Positions 54,028 through 60,171 of a DNA stretch of 64,000 nucleotides are shown in pieces. The notes under the pieces were generated by a model. The model was not told the DNA's origin. It searched no databases and was given only the letters and a program-made list of their open reading frames with translations. Each line of letters starts with the position of its first letter. Within the stretch, counting starts at the first letter, position 1. Where the stretch lies: the NCBI GenBank assembly GCA_027484605.1, contig JAIXSR010000087.1, positions 43,898-107,897 on the forward strand, written 5' to 3'. The translations under genes were made by a program, and so were the position numbers. This DNA comes from Hyphomicrobiales bacterium (GTDB taxonomy: Bacteria; Pseudomonadota; Alphaproteobacteria; Rhizobiales; Beijerinckiaceae).

Positions 54028-54078
54028 CGACATCCGGGGCAGTGGCCACCGGCACAGGACTTTGCTACTGCTTGTATG

Positions 54079-54093
54079 GCAGGCATGGCCTGC
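54079..54093. promoter_or_regulatory. Inverted repeat GCAGGC-ATG-GCCTGC upstream of the Crp/Fnr gene
   Basis: Perfect 6-3-6 inverted repeat 20 bp before the ATG. Confidence 0.3.
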
Positions 54094-54113
54094 GGGCCGC
54101 GGGGGCGGGGACT

Positions 54114-54794
54114 ATGCCGGAACTATCTGAAATCGTTCTGTTCGATGGCCTCGATACCGCATCGATCGCTGCGTTGGAACAGGCCGTGATCGTGCGCCGC
54201 TATGCCGCCGGGAAGGCGATCATCAGCACGGACGAACCCAGCACGGACATCTTTTTCGTGCTGACGGGACGTGTCCAGGCCAAGCGCTATGCGCCGGATG
54301 GCCATGAAGTGGTCTATCTCGACATTTCCGAGGGTTCGTATTTCGGGGAATTCGCAGCCATTGACGGTCAAACCCGTTCCGCCGATGTTATCGCTATCAG
54401 CGAGGCCCGGATCGCGCGCATGCGCGGCGACCAGTTCAATGAATTCGTCCTGCGCAACCCACGGATCGGGCTGAATCTTTCCCGCGAGCTGGTCCGCAAG
54501 CTGCGCGACCTTTCCGCCCGCGTCTTCGAATTCACGGTCTATCCCGTGCCGATCCGCATCCGGAAGGCGATCCTCCGTCTCGCCGAACAGGCGCGGCGGC
54601 CGGGCAGCATCTGCATGATCAGGCCGGCGCCGACCCACTACGAGATCGCCGCCCTGACGGCCACGCATCGCGAGGCGGTAACCCGCGAACTGGCTTCGCT
54701 CGCATCGCAGGGCATCCTGAAGACCGGCCGGCAGACGATCGAGATCCTTGACCTGCCCCGTTTGCGCGCCCTGGCCGATCCGGAACAAGACTGA
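54114..54794 (+). CDS. Crp/Fnr family transcriptional regulator
   Basis: cNMP-binding cassette YFGEFAAIDGQTRSADV; HTH YEIAALTATHREAVTRELASLASQGILK. Confidence 0.93.
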   Translation: MPELSEIVLFDGLDTASIAALEQAVIVRRYAAGKAIISTDEPSTDIFFVLTGRVQAKRYAPDGHEVVYLDISEGSYFGEFAAIDGQTRSADVIAISEARIARMRGDQFNEFVLRNPRIGLNLSRELVRKLRDLSARVFEFTVYPVPIRIRKAILRLAEQARRPGSICMIRPAPTHYEIAALTATHREAVTRELASLASQGILKTGRQTIEILDLPRLRALADPEQD

Positions 54795-54812: not shown

Positions 54813-56903
54813 TCATCCCGGAAGCTGGCCATTGCCCCGTCGCGCATCCGGGGCCGGAACCGGGGCATCCACCAGCATCGATGCGAAGGCCACCTTCGGC
54901 TGGCGGCGCTGGAAGCGTCTGATCGAGCGGGCAATGGCCCGCGTCGCCATGGCAGCGGCCATGCTGGTGCCGTACAGCCGGATCGAGCCGGCAGCCCGCA
55001 TCCCCGAGGACAGGCAGCCCCAGAGCAGCACGGAATCATCGGCGGCCACAAGGCCATCCACGCCGTTCGGCCATTCCGGCCGGCCGCCGCCCGAGTAAAG
55101 CGAGACGTCCACCGGGAAACTGCGCCGCGCCGGGCAGGAGCCGATCACCAGCGTCCGCGGGCCCGTGGCCAGCGCATTCAGCGCGCCGGGGCGCTGGACC
55201 GGGCTGTTCTCCTGCGAGCCATCCCCGGGCTGTCGGGGCGGGTCGAAAGCGCGGTAATCCGGATGGCGGAAGCGCGACTGCCGCGAGGGCCGCGTGGTGG
55301 CGACCGGCAGGTCATCGCGCTGGACCCAGGCCTCGATCGCTTCGTTCCGCAGTAATCCTGTCGCTTCGACCTTGATCTGCCAGGCACCGCTGGCGGCACG
55401 ATGGACGGCATCGGCCTGTGTCGGCCCGACCACAAGCTGGAACAGGCCACGGGGTCGCGAGGCCTGGGGCGCACAAAAGAGCACCATGGCCGCCGGCATC
55501 CCGGAACGGCCGGGCAGTTCCGCGACATCGCCCTTCCTGTTGGCGAGGCGGATCGATTGCCCGGACGGCGCGGTAAGCGTGATATGCGCCTTGCCCCGGA
55601 ACCCGCGGGGCAGCCAGATCTGCACCGAATTCGCGCTGCCATCATCCGGCGGAATCTCCCAGGCAAGGCTGGCCTTGGCCGGATTGGACAGGGCATGGCG
55701 ATCCCATTGGGCAAAGGTCTGCGACTGGTAGCCATTGCCGGCGGGGAGCACGATCACCAGCGGCGAGCGCGGATGCGCGCGGCTCCATAGCGTCTGCATC
55801 TCGAAAAGCGCCTTTTCGAGCGGCCCTTCGCCATCATGCGGGCCGGCATTGAACCCGTAGCTCATGTTGACAACCACCGGCGGCACGCTGCCGACTGGTC
55901 CGGAGGCCTGGCGTGCGGGCTTGCCCTCGTCGAGCACGAAGAGCGGGGAGGGCGGCGGATGCGCCGCGTCCTCCGCTTCGGCGAGGATGAAGCGCATGGC
56001 ATCGAAGGCATGGCCGGAAAGGGCCGCGCCGGAGCTGTCATCCACCGTGGTCTTCGGCAGGTGGACCGCAACAACCGGCTCCGTGCCGTCAAGCGGTGAC
56101 GCAGCTTCGAGAGCCAGTCCGGAGACATGGGCGCCGTGGCTTGCGGAGAGCTGCGTCCAGTAGCTGTCCCGGTCCTGGCTGCGGAAAAGGCCGGCCGAGG
56201 CATAGAACCGGTCTTCGTCGCCATCGACCCTGGCGAGATGGCGCACGATTCCTTCGCCCGTCAGTGCCGCGCCGTAATCGAATCCGGCCGGGTTGGCGAG
56301 GCCGTGGCCGGGATGGGGCGCGACCGGCTTTCCGTCCTGTACCCAGAGGGCACGAACGCGCGTCGCCCAGCCGGAGGGGGTTCCTGCCCGGCGCGAGAAG
56401 ACGGGGCTGGCCACCGGAAAGCCGTGGTCGATGATCCCTGTGAGCACGCGGATCGCGGATGGCGCGCCCATCGGCGCGGCCATGGCCATCGCGTTCGGGC
56501 GGCCGGCGGCCGGTTGGCCATCGATCGCCTGGCAGAGCGTGATTTCGTCGAACAGCGCCTGGACCGAAGTCGAGGCGAGCAGCCAGTCGAAGAAGAGGGG
56601 CAGCGCCCGTGCGGTCAGGTAGCGGGCCTTGGCCCAGGTGCCGCCCGTGGCCTGGGCGCAATCCAGCGTCTGATGCCATTGGGCGATCGTGACGCCGCGG
56701 CCCTGATGGACGAAGAGCCGGTTCGGATCGGCCGCATGCCGGAAGCTCCGCAAGGCTGCGAGGTCGATCCCGTCGGCCAGCCGGATGAGAAGCATGATCC
56801 GCCCGTTCGGCGATCGGGCCGTTTCGGGGCGGATCCAGTCGGCCAGCGGGTCCATGGCCAGCGGGAGCGACTGATAGGCACTGGTTGCGGTCCGCCAGGT
56901 CAT
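54813..56903 (-). CDS. S8 (subtilisin-like) serine protease
   Basis: Catalytic motifs GIIDHGF (Asp), SHGAHVSG (His), YGTSMAAAMA (Ser); no obvious signal peptide. Confidence 0.85.
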   Translation of the reverse strand: MTWRTATSAYQSLPLAMDPLADWIRPETARSPNGRIMLLIRLADGIDLAALRSFRHAADPNRLFVHQGRGVTIAQWHQTLDCAQATGGTWAKARYLTARALPLFFDWLLASTSVQALFDEITLCQAIDGQPAAGRPNAMAMAAPMGAPSAIRVLTGIIDHGFPVASPVFSRRAGTPSGWATRVRALWVQDGKPVAPHPGHGLANPAGFDYGAALTGEGIVRHLARVDGDEDRFYASAGLFRSQDRDSYWTQLSASHGAHVSGLALEAASPLDGTEPVVAVHLPKTTVDDSSGAALSGHAFDAMRFILAEAEDAAHPPPSPLFVLDEGKPARQASGPVGSVPPVVVNMSYGFNAGPHDGEGPLEKALFEMQTLWSRAHPRSPLVIVLPAGNGYQSQTFAQWDRHALSNPAKASLAWEIPPDDGSANSVQIWLPRGFRGKAHITLTAPSGQSIRLANRKGDVAELPGRSGMPAAMVLFCAPQASRPRGLFQLVVGPTQADAVHRAASGAWQIKVEATGLLRNEAIEAWVQRDDLPVATTRPSRQSRFRHPDYRAFDPPRQPGDGSQENSPVQRPGALNALATGPRTLVIGSCPARRSFPVDVSLYSGGGRPEWPNGVDGLVAADDSVLLWGCLSSGMRAAGSIRLYGTSMAAAMATRAIARSIRRFQRRQPKVAFASMLVDAPVPAPDARRGNGQLPG

Positions 56904-56934
56904 GGGCGCCTCCCTTCCGCTGCGTTCAGGGCCG

Positions 56935-58161
56935 TCAGGCCCATTCCGCCAGGGCTTTCTGCCAGAGCCAGGCAAGAATGCCGGACGAGCCGAGCGTCAG
57001 CCGCGCCTGGACGCTCAGGCCTGCCACAACAGCCGGCCCTTCAGCCAGCGGCGGGTTGATCGTCGGGCCATCGGCGATATCCATCTGGCGGACAAGGGCG
57101 GCATGGTCGAAAAACCCGTCAGGCTCATCGTCGCAGAAGGTGGCGGCGTCGAAATGCCAGGAATGGCAGGAAGCTTCCGAGCCCTGGCACCGGGCCGCGA
57201 GATAGCGGGCCAGCGCGATGCCGAGAACGGCGCCGGCGGCGCTGTCGACAGGGTAATGCACCCCCGCCACCATTCGGTTATAGGCAATGCGATCCGCGAG
57301 CTTGAACAGCCTGTCGCGCCACGGGCGATCGGCCTGGCGGGCGCCGGCCTTTTCCAGCAGCGCGACCAGCATGGCCACCATCGCGAAGGATTCGGTCGCA
57401 TGGCCGCTCGGCAACGTCCCATGCAGCGGCGTGGGAATGACCGGGTTGATCTGCGGCGAGAGCTCGTGCGGACGCGGCAGGGAAAAGGCATGCTTGAAGG
57501 CCATTTCCACGAAGACGCAAAGCCGGAACGTGGCCGCCAGAAGTTCCAGCGTCCATTTCGTCCTTTCTTCCGAAAGCGGCACGAACATGCCGAGGAAGGG
57601 CAGCGGAACCGGGATCTGGGCGAGAATTTCATGGATCCGGTCGCCCCGCAGCAGCGCCGCATTGGCCACGAGGGCCAGCTGGCGGTCCCCGAGCTGCGGG
57701 ATACTTGGCGGAACGAGCGTCACGATCGGATCATACTGTGCGGAAAGATGCGGGCCGCCGGGTTCGGTTGTCCAGCTCTGCTGGGCCGAATGGACGACGA
57801 AGGCGCGCGGATGGGCCGGATCCGGCGAGAAGGCGATCTGCGAGAACAACTCGCCATCGAGGATCCGCGCCCGGACATCGCTGGACCAGCGCGCAAGGCT
57901 GTCCTGCTCGGTCGCGGGGACCGGCCCGGGCAGCGTCGCGGGCGGCGCATACAGTCCGGACAGCGCGTCATGGATGGTCAGGACGCTGCCGGGCGAGCCA
58001 TTCCAGCTGCCGGCCAAACCGTTCAATCCGTTGAGGCCATTGAGCCCGTTCAGGCCATTGAGCCCGTTCAACCCGTTGAGCCCGTTGAGTCCGTTCAGGC
58101 CATTGAGCCCGTTCAGTCCGTTGAGGCCATTGAGCCCGTTCAATCCATTGGCAAACGACAT
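56935..58161 (-). CDS. PAP2 / vanadium-haloperoxidase-like phosphatase with N-terminal (Asn-Gly-Leu)15 repeat
   Basis: KHAFSLPRP, LPSGHATE, RMVAGVHYPVD acid-phosphatase/haloperoxidase motifs; N-terminal NGL repeats. Confidence 0.85.
   Translation of the reverse strand: MSFANGLNGLNGLNGLNGLNGLNGLNGLNGLNGLNGLNGLNGLNGLNGLAGSWNGSPGSVLTIHDALSGLYAPPATLPGPVPATEQDSLARWSSDVRARILDGELFSQIAFSPDPAHPRAFVVHSAQQSWTTEPGGPHLSAQYDPIVTLVPPSIPQLGDRQLALVANAALLRGDRIHEILAQIPVPLPFLGMFVPLSEERTKWTLELLAATFRLCVFVEMAFKHAFSLPRPHELSPQINPVIPTPLHGTLPSGHATESFAMVAMLVALLEKAGARQADRPWRDRLFKLADRIAYNRMVAGVHYPVDSAAGAVLGIALARYLAARCQGSEASCHSWHFDAATFCDDEPDGFFDHAALVRQMDIADGPTINPPLAEGPAVVAGLSVQARLTLGSSGILAWLWQKALAEWA
58015..58149 (-). repeat. 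15 tandem 9-bp units encoding Asn-Gly-Leu
   Basis: Counted directly: 135 bp = 15 x 9, all encoding NGL with varying synonymous codons. Confidence 0.97.
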
Positions 58162-58176
58162 GCGGACCTCCTGTCT

Positions 58177-59973
58177 TTAATGTTCTGGTATGCCGGCGCC
58201 GCGCAGGCCTCCGGCGAGCCGGCGGCCGACATCGAAATCGGCGGCCGGGGATTTGGCGAGCCAGCGCTCGACCGTCAGATTGGGCTCGATCATGCGGAGG
58301 GTCTCGGCGGAGGCCCGCGCCTCGGCCGGCCGGCCGAGATGCCAGAGCGCGGCTGTCCTGACACGGCTTCCCGAGGGATAGAGCCGGTTGGCGCGGATCG
58401 CCTCGTCGGCATGGGCGAGGGCGACATCATAGAGACCGGCCGAGAAGGCCGAGGAGGCGGCAATCGCCTCGAAATAGTAGCGATGGGGGTCAAAGGGCGA
58501 GAGCGCCATCGCGCGCCGCGCGATCGGGTAGGCTTCCTCGCCCCGGTCCGTGAATTGCAGCAGCGCCGCATTGTGCAGGAGGGCATAGGTCTCGTTCGGG
58601 TTGAGTTCGCTGGCCCGCTCGAGGAATATCGCTGCCTCGTCGAAATTCCGGGCGAAATTCGTCTCGATCAACCCGGCAACGGCGAGTGCCAGCGGATTGT
58701 CCGGGTCAAGATCCATCGCCCGCCTTGCGAGAGCCTGGGCCTCGCGCCCTTCCGCTGCAGGATCATCGGAAAACCCCTTCTGGACCTTGATCGTGTACCA
58801 GCAGGCGAGCCAGGCCTGCGGCAGTGCCTCGCGGGGATGGCGCTCCGCCAGGGCAGCAAGGATATCGGCCGCATAGGTGAAGTCCTGCCGGGCAGCCCGG
58901 TGCATCATGCTGACCGCGCCGACCAGCAGGGAATGGCTCTCGAGATTCGGCAGCGTCTGACGGCGGACACGCTGGACCTCGTTCCGCAGGACCGCGCGCA
59001 GCAGCCCTGCAATGAACCCGTCGAACCCGTGGAATTCGGACGTGATCAGGGCCTCGGCCGGCATCGAGAAGCGTTGTTCCAGCCGCACCAACCCTGTTTT
59101 CCGTTCGGTCAGTTCCAGCGTCGCCCGAACCCGGTCCTGGATGGCGGAATAGCTGCCCGATACGATGTAGTCGGCCTGCAGGGCCTCTGCCGCGAGGCCC
59201 GGCGACAATGCCCGCTGCCGGGCCACCGAGGCCGAAAGCCGCGAGATGACGTTGAGATAGGGCGATCCGGACAAAGCCGAGATCAGTTCGTCGGCAATGA
59301 TGTCGCCCAGAACGTCTCGCGCCGGGCCGCCCTGGATCGGCATGAGCGGCACCACTGCGATGGTGGGCACGAGCTGGGCATCCTTGCGGGCCGGCATGGC
59401 GGGCGGGCGCCTTATGCCGACGGGACGGAGGGCATAGGCGCGGATGGGAGCCTCCAGATGCTTGAGGTAGCAGGCGCCGAGATCCTCGATATCGGCATCG
59501 ACGCCGTCGACCATCTCGCCGCGCACATCTTCCGAAACGATAATGGCGCTCGGCATGCCGAGCCCGGCAAGCCGCGCCGCGAGATTGACGGCTTCCCCGT
59601 AGACATCCTGCCGGTCCGAGAGGAATTCGCCCCGCGCCATGCCGACACGGATGGCGATCGGCAGGGCGCCGGCCAGATCGGCATTGGCCCGCTCGACAAT
59701 GGCCATCGCCTCGAAGAGCGAACCCATTGCCGCGCGCGGCTCTGAGAACTGGCCGATGATCCCGTCGCCGGTCGAGCGGATCACACGGCCGCCGCCCTTG
59801 GCAAAAAGCGCTTCGATGGCCTGCCGCTGCTCGATCCACCGGGTGATGAACAGCCCGCCATCCCGCGCCGTCAGCCGGACCGATTCCATCACGTCGATAA
59901 AGACGATGACGCCACTCGACCAGGCGAGATCGCCCGTCGCGAACCGATGAAGTGCCGAACCCTCATCCGCCAT
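58177..59973 (-). CDS. Class III adenylate/guanylate cyclase with C-terminal TPR-like region
   Basis: VIVFIDVMESVRLTARDGG, VIRSTGDGIIGQFSEP, YGEAVNLAARLAGLG; then TolB-like and TPR repeats (ARRAMDLDPDNPLALAVAGL). Confidence 0.92.
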   Translation of the reverse strand: MADEGSALHRFATGDLAWSSGVIVFIDVMESVRLTARDGGLFITRWIEQRQAIEALFAKGGGRVIRSTGDGIIGQFSEPRAAMGSLFEAMAIVERANADLAGALPIAIRVGMARGEFLSDRQDVYGEAVNLAARLAGLGMPSAIIVSEDVRGEMVDGVDADIEDLGACYLKHLEAPIRAYALRPVGIRRPPAMPARKDAQLVPTIAVVPLMPIQGGPARDVLGDIIADELISALSGSPYLNVISRLSASVARQRALSPGLAAEALQADYIVSGSYSAIQDRVRATLELTERKTGLVRLEQRFSMPAEALITSEFHGFDGFIAGLLRAVLRNEVQRVRRQTLPNLESHSLLVGAVSMMHRAARQDFTYAADILAALAERHPREALPQAWLACWYTIKVQKGFSDDPAAEGREAQALARRAMDLDPDNPLALAVAGLIETNFARNFDEAAIFLERASELNPNETYALLHNAALLQFTDRGEEAYPIARRAMALSPFDPHRYYFEAIAASSAFSAGLYDVALAHADEAIRANRLYPSGSRVRTAALWHLGRPAEARASAETLRMIEPNLTVERWLAKSPAADFDVGRRLAGGLRGAGIPEH

Positions 59974-60171
59974 CGACGCCCCCTGCCAATCGGATCGGGA
60001 AGCGAGGCTAGGCAGTTTCGAAGCCGATGTCACGCTGTGCCGGCCGGCCACCGGCGCGGCTGTCCGGGCCGGTCGGGGGGGCTGCATCAGGCATTCGGTC
60101 GGAGGTGAGGGCATGATGCTCTGGCTTCGGAACGGCGGGTCCGGCCATCCTTGCATCTCTGCCCGGGCGAT

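Follow-up and report, generated by a model that had tools for sequence, protein, structure and literature searches.

Introduction

Protein evolution normally keeps the sequence of a motif or lets the motif drift. Among the repeats closest to those described here, the circumsporozoite protein of Plasmodium carries a homogeneous short repeat whose unit differs between species, and the GGX motifs of spider silk and the C-terminal GGM tail of GroEL are short-period, glycine-rich segments of low complexity, for which a threefold or PPII-like conformation has been proposed. Elsewhere, low-complexity tracts rich in small residues act as slippery tails, an example being the Gly-Ala repeats of EBNA1. 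Among the germination proteases of clostridia, CspB cleaves the cortex hydrolase SleC. Finally, two reports describe high-internal-conservation repeats in fungal NLR proteins, which are alike within an array and are used in self/non-self recognition (PMC12222747, PMC4986451).

Here we describe an N-terminal peptide array on a PAP2-fold protein encoded in a window of 64,000 nucleotides, by which we mean the whole stretch of DNA analyzed. In the family to which this protein belongs, exact repetition is under strong selection, and the repeated sequence has been swapped wholesale dozens of times at one orthologous place.

Results

The window array, (Asn-Gly-Leu)15, lies at 58015..58149 on the minus strand, within an open reading frame running from 58161 to 56935 (-) that reads MSFA-(NGL)15-AGSW and then continues into the PAP2 domain. 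It spans residues 5-49, and its 135 bp consist of 15 in-frame 9-bp units, each encoding Asn-Gly-Leu, with variable codons for all three residues (AAT/AAC; GGA/GGG/GGC/GGT; CTC/CTG/TTG). A sequence-only reading had reported 15 such units with variable codons directly after MSFA, and its coordinates and codons were exact. There are 9 different DNA units among the 15 copies, which depart from the unit consensus by 25 synonymous and no nonsynonymous differences. The run over which residue i equals residue i+3 is 42 long in the window protein, compared with a maximum of 11 when the same residues are shuffled 100,000 times, so the array is not a product of chance.

Four nucleotides 5' of the ATG at 58161 is a strong Shine-Dalgarno sequence, AGGAGGT (58166..58172, minus strand; AGGAGGT-CCGC-ATG), and we therefore conclude that the window array is translated, with the start codon upstream of the repeat and not downstream of it. 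Among relatives, a Shine-Dalgarno-like motif precedes 43 of the 55 starts upstream of an array, compared with 71 of 805 internal methionines. All five Rhabdaerophilum species that share the window gene (identity at least 87-88%) have NGL as their unit, in 15 or 16 copies; a search for (NGL)n in the other proteins of the genome, which the earlier reading had proposed, found no further NGL array. The same genome does encode a true collagen-like ORF (contig C150, L003 1233-1745), in which Gly-X-Y repeats of the GPAGAQ type follow a membrane-anchor-like N-terminus. On the strand opposite the operon, an open frame of 947 aa (56902-59745, plus strand) is probably a high-GC artefact.

The protein that carries the array (56935..58161, minus strand) has 408 aa and comes from a relative of Rhabdaerophilum. 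It had been labeled PAP2/haloperoxidase; haloperoxidase activity is putative, but the PAP2 assignment is correct: the protein matches Pfam PAP2 (PF01569) with 57.3 bits against a cut-off of 27.2, and its motif residues are conserved. The catalytic motifs are K-x6-RP (K223, R230, P231), PSGH (251-254) and R296-x5-H302-x3-D306; K223, R230, P251, S252, H254, R296, H302 and D306 are invariant in 71-74 relatives, and P231 and G253 are present in more than 90% of them. AlphaFold2 (AF2) models the core with pLDDT mostly above 90, and the array tail of the monomer, with pLDDT 30-42, is predicted to be disordered. Among the VIA matches, the closest solved folds are class A acid phosphatases, PhoN with Z 18.3 and 7f17 with Z 18.1 and 28% identity; vanadium haloperoxidases come next, with Z of 15 and below. 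The N-terminus consists of the array and has, on inspection by eye, no signal-like stretch.

Most relatives were gathered with the PAP2 core from which the array had been removed (only a first small set was collected with the whole protein), so the collection is not biased toward arrays. A tandem short-peptide array nevertheless stands at the N-terminus of 113 of 113 homologues with an intact N-terminus, a count in which a few loci were entered twice; their hosts are alpha-, beta- and probably gammaproteobacteria. We saw no loss of the array in this family. No intact homologue was array-negative: one negative (L038) ends at a contig edge, and in a wider check the negatives were truncated only, the exceptions besides truncated ORFs being two loci, L031 and L063, with imperfect or short arrays. 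The repeat is thus found at the same place in every relative with an intact N-terminus, which disposes of the concern, raised in the sequence-only reading, that strains might lack it. The median distance from the initiating methionine to the array is 6 residues, and arrays have 3-18 copies. Their period is 3 in 94 cases, 4 in 16, 6 (built from 3) in two, and 2 in a single array, (NK)n.

The repeated unit itself is highly variable. Counting rotations once, we found 51 distinct units in 104 arrays. Examples are NGL, GGL, GGF, GGI, GGV, GGH, GGQ, GAF, GAY, GSF, SGA, SGE, SGD, TGW, NGE, NGY, NAY, NAE, RAQ, AGR, NSF, GMH, GNQ, TGN, DAR and QTQ, as well as SGGx, where x is A, V, I, L, M, T, F, Y or E. 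Gly, Ala or Ser occurs in 50 of the 51 units, and Pro, Lys and Cys in none; Gly is missing from seven (NSF, RAQ, NAY, NAE, TAM, QTQ and DAR). On a FastTree phylogeny of 104 PAP2 cores, we count at least 62 changes of the unit but three of the period. Cores that are 93% identical carry SGGI x6 and SGGL x8, and cores that are 88% identical carry GGF x12 and GGL x11, in each case across the whole array, so that core identities of 88-93% are compatible with entirely different arrays. Because of these many unit changes, the few period changes and the lack of any observed array loss, we conclude that exact short-period repetition is conserved and that the repeated unit is free to change.

In genomes with two copies of the system, the units differ between the copies (L043/L049, L046/L088, L081/L095, L106/L121). 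We saw no polymorphism of the unit within a species. In 80 long loci, the genes neighboring the repeat-PAP2 contain no matching repeats, and the 777 other ORFs of these loci hold a single real sense array outside the family. This is (PVD)8 (L057, 13521-13593), an unrelated tripeptide linker within a 1255-aa ORF.

Comparison of the copies within arrays points to selection on the peptide. Across the 104 arrays, the units depart from the consensus of their array by 1596 synonymous differences and 44 nonsynonymous ones, the latter number being inflated by mixed AGY/TCN serine codons; the synonymous share is 97%, compared with 28% expected by chance. Within arrays, codon homozygosity is 0.34, compared with 0.40 for the remainder of the operon (Wilcoxon p = 1.7e-7); GC3 is also lower, at 0.56 compared with 0.73. 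The synonymous excess, together with a codon diversity above that of the rest of the operon, argues that the arrays are not fresh products of slippage, and it bears out on a family scale what had been proposed for the window array from its codons, namely, that selection acts on the peptide. The repeat at the DNA level may itself be selected against.

At the same time, the arrays turn over. Compared unit by unit, the array DNA of close species is mostly no more collinear than shuffled units are, in a test that leaves synonymous saturation uncalibrated, and we therefore take the arrays to be renewed. Two Microvirga arrays have one GGV among GGI units. The sole clearly fresh expansion that we saw is (GGMS)7 in L052 (1-90), where the seven DNA units are identical. 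Phaeobacter strains carry (NSF)5-7, with differences of whole units and synonymous changes. Mixed GGI/GGV arrays, the L052 expansion and the Phaeobacter copy variation show a route for such turnover. Copy number thus varies between strains of one homologue by whole units, with no frameshift, and not in the free, frame-breaking manner that the earlier reading had asked about.

Clustering of ORFs from the 80 long loci defines a conserved trio, in which the repeat-PAP2 is accompanied by a TPR regulator (74/80) and an S8 protease (72/80). In the window, the upstream gene (58177..60156, minus strand) encodes a class III adenylate/guanylate cyclase domain (Pfam Guanylate_cyc) followed by a TPR-like region, and has a homologue in 74 of the 80 loci. 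In Phaeobacter and Tropicibacter, the same TPR scaffold carries a wHTH DNA-binding domain (Trans_reg_C). Two TPR regulators whose N-termini are SARP-like (L145 and L147) have no PAP2 within the surrounding 9-10 kb, so this type of regulator also serves other functions.

The downstream gene (54813..56903, minus strand), found in 72 of the 80 loci, encodes a Csp-type S8 subtilase with an inserted beta-rich domain, as identified by Pfam, an alignment of 43 members and Foldseek. Its D159, H256, S647 triad and the oxyanion residue N390 are invariant in the 43 aligned members. The best Foldseek matches of the model, which contains the insert, are CspB, CspA and CspC (E 6e-22 to 4e-19, with CspB at 6e-22), and the next family follows at 2e-5; the match to these germination subtilases extends over nearly the whole length, insert included. 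Strong-scoring S8 relatives adjoin a repeat-PAP2, and L127, a distant S8, stands alone. On a deep branch, an A4-family peptidase takes the place of the S8 protease, beside PAP2 proteins with TGN, AGN and TSN tails; the A4 loci are L129 (6259-7350), L166, L167 and L168. In one Phaeobacter locus (L186, P. inhibens M647), the genes for PAP2 and S8 seem to be shortened, the latter being annotated as hypothetical; the array is intact.

An optional fourth gene encodes a CRP/FNR-family regulator (54042..54794, plus strand; Pfam cNMP_binding and HTH_Crp_2) and lies tail-to-tail with the S8 gene. About 20 of the 80 loci have such a regulator at the same position (L020-L023, L042, L052, L056, L063, L069, L071, L072, L075, L078, L082, L085, L086, L089, L090, L093 and L097). 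The presence of this gene beside the S8 protease is consistent with cyclic-nucleotide signaling and suggests that the fourth gene is an optional cyclic-nucleotide-responsive component.

The trio is patchily distributed, being present in 14 of 150 relatives and in 20 of 398 genomes sampled from across the phylum. In Phaeobacter it is on plasmids, many of them predicted to be conjugative. A phage origin of the gene was ruled out by the lack of any relative in the IMG/VR viral collection and by phage records that gave just two weak partial matches to PAP2. PADLOC anti-phage models matched neither PAP2 nor S8; the resemblance of the regulator to PADLOC PycC is weak and of the kind shown by any class III cyclase. 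PHROGs gave nothing informative.

Discussion

The sequence-only reading had envisaged an oligomerization or scaffold element, and a putative role of that kind is still the likeliest for the array. In the specific form that we favor, though only tentatively and with less confidence than doubt, the array is a self-matching N-terminal assembly tag, complete with a step of release by protease. Such a tag would consist of one short peptide repeated exactly, and only self-matching would matter: any unit would work provided that all copies match. The tails of the same protein would bind each other whatever the register, their small residues at period 3-4 allowing them to pack as extended or PPII/polyglycine-II-like chains, and this association would gather the PAP2 enzyme into a homotypic assembly. 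As units are duplicated and lost, an altered one could spread along the array. The neighboring Csp-like (or A4) protease, under the same regulator, might then cut the tail and so release or activate the enzyme, a step modeled on the action of CspB on SleC; that the protease may do this is suggested by gene neighborhood and fold.

Self-association would explain identity without a fixed sequence most directly, because the copies match each other and nothing outside the protein needs to match. The observations that count for the tag are that the array is universal in the repeat-PAP2 family, that its copies are identical as peptide and scrambled as DNA, and that units have been exchanged at least 62 times; they also include the conserved trio, whose protease has its catalytic residues intact, and the retention of a protease when the class changes from S8 to A4. 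Counting against it, some units are hydrophobic (GGF) and others acidic (NAE) or basic (RAQ), a range for which one packing mode is not obvious, period 4 misfits a three-residue helix, and we saw no species with a polymorphic unit. We are more doubtful that the array is a sequence-neutral self-recognition code, in which only the equality of units between two chains matters and lineages switch units at will. If true, this would amount to a module for protein assembly in bacteria that draws its specificity from a short peptide, free to evolve and multiplied into an array, and that is used in an undescribed operon of TPR regulator, PAP2 enzyme and protease.

Other explanations look outward from the tail to its operon partners. 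The array could be a multivalent ligand read by the TPR superhelix of the regulator, or by the protease, with a binding site that co-evolves with the unit. TPR domains bind extended peptides, which lends this idea some general plausibility, and the three operon genes do diverge together (identity-matrix correlations 0.84-0.90). However, loci with the same unit have no region of the regulator that is specifically more alike, the excess being spread over the whole protein and following clades, and the S8 protease has no excess likeness between such loci at all; co-evolution of the unit with either partner thus came down to clade effects only. This lack of region-specific covariation is weak evidence against a partner that reads the array, and each of the unit switches, at least 62 in number, would need a matching change in the partner. 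We consider such a partner unlikely. Still less likely, in our judgment, is that the array serves as a pro-region, keeping the PAP2 enzyme inactive or masking its N-terminus until the Csp-like or A4 protease removes it at one of many equivalent cut sites. The protease gene is nearly always adjacent and can change class, its closest solved S8 relatives are the Csp germination proteases, and one such protease processes a hydrolase zymogen. Yet one type of protease would have to accept GGF, NAE and RAQ alike, and selection for exact identity within the array would be left unexplained.

Three further readings concern the composition or origin of the repeat. A slippery tail that keeps ATP-dependent proteases from gripping the N-terminus would fit both the behavior of small-residue tracts elsewhere, such as the Gly-Ala repeat of EBNA1, and the small residue in 50 of 51 units; slipperiness, however, requires neither exact copy identity nor bulky units such as TGW, NAY, RAQ and QTQ, and we find the idea improbable. 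A collagen-like triple helix has even poorer prospects, and the collagen-like reading first given to the window array is not supported. Glycine does recur at every third residue in NGL and in most units, and the window protein reaches the cut-off of Pfam Collagen, to which 21 of 71 relatives have a match. But the repeat is kept at the same, orthologous place although Gly is absent from seven of the 51 units and Pro from all of them, and although the period is 4 in about 15% of arrays; judged by sequence, Gly-X-Y is not a conserved feature of the family. Last in our ranking is a neutral low-complexity tail, generated by replication slippage on an unconstrained N-terminus. Whole-unit copy number does vary among Phaeobacter strains, and the seven identical DNA units of L052 are what slippage would produce, but this explanation is already contradicted by differences that are 97% synonymous, by a codon diversity that exceeds that of the remaining operon, by universal retention over deep divergence and by a period that is almost only 3 or 4.

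Whatever the tail does, these data suggest that its repetition matters and that the particular peptide does not. In this family, nature supplies a library of self-matching tags, more than 50 of them on one enzyme, which permits a clean test of whether assembly requires a certain peptide or just matching copies. The analysis has also uncovered a widespread, patchy and partly plasmid-borne operon of TPR regulator, repeat-PAP2 and Csp-like or A4 protease.

We know of no case in which, at one orthologous site, the copies are identical as peptides, their DNA is scrambled and the unit is freely exchanged. Bacterial collagen-like proteins (Scl/Lcl, PF01391) resemble the window unit and most others in having Gly at each third residue, and share the Pfam Collagen match; the repeat-PAP2 family differs in its lack of conserved Gly-X-Y or Pro, in its period-4 units and in being a short tail on an enzyme. 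The Plasmodium circumsporozoite protein also carries a homogeneous short peptide repeat with a unit that differs between species, but it is a parasite surface antigen under immune pressure, whereas the repeat-PAP2 is a bacterial enzyme, apparently cytosolic, whose unit has been switched at least 62 times. The GGX motifs of spider silk and the GroEL GGM tail are likewise short-period, Gly-rich and of low complexity; there, however, the unit is not freely exchanged, and composition is the functional feature. Slippage microsatellites or VNTRs have near-identical DNA units, unlike the window array with its 9 DNA units in 15 copies, L052 being the exception.

The enzymes of the operon have known relatives too. 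Class A acid phosphatases (PhoN, 7f17) and vanadium haloperoxidases share the PAP2 fold and its catalytic residues, although in the case of the haloperoxidases the shared fold says nothing on function; to our knowledge, neither group has been described with such an N-terminal repeat or such an operon. The S8 partner resembles clostridial CspB, CspA and CspC in fold (E 6e-22), including the inserted beta-rich (jelly-roll) domain, but those are sporulation proteins of Firmicutes, whereas the S8 partner is proteobacterial, lies beside PAP2 and has 12-17% identity to them. The repeats of fungal NLR proteins are similarly kept alike within an array, but they are long, folded and homogenized in DNA, whereas in the PAP2 arrays the DNA is scrambled and the peptide alone is uniform (PMC12222747, PMC4986451). 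Each of these known kinds of repeat shares one aspect with the PAP2 arrays, and searches of open-access full text found no description of such arrays or of the trio. We therefore regard the array phenomenon as new, with the reservation that its parts (PAP2, S8 protease and TPR regulator) are of known kinds.
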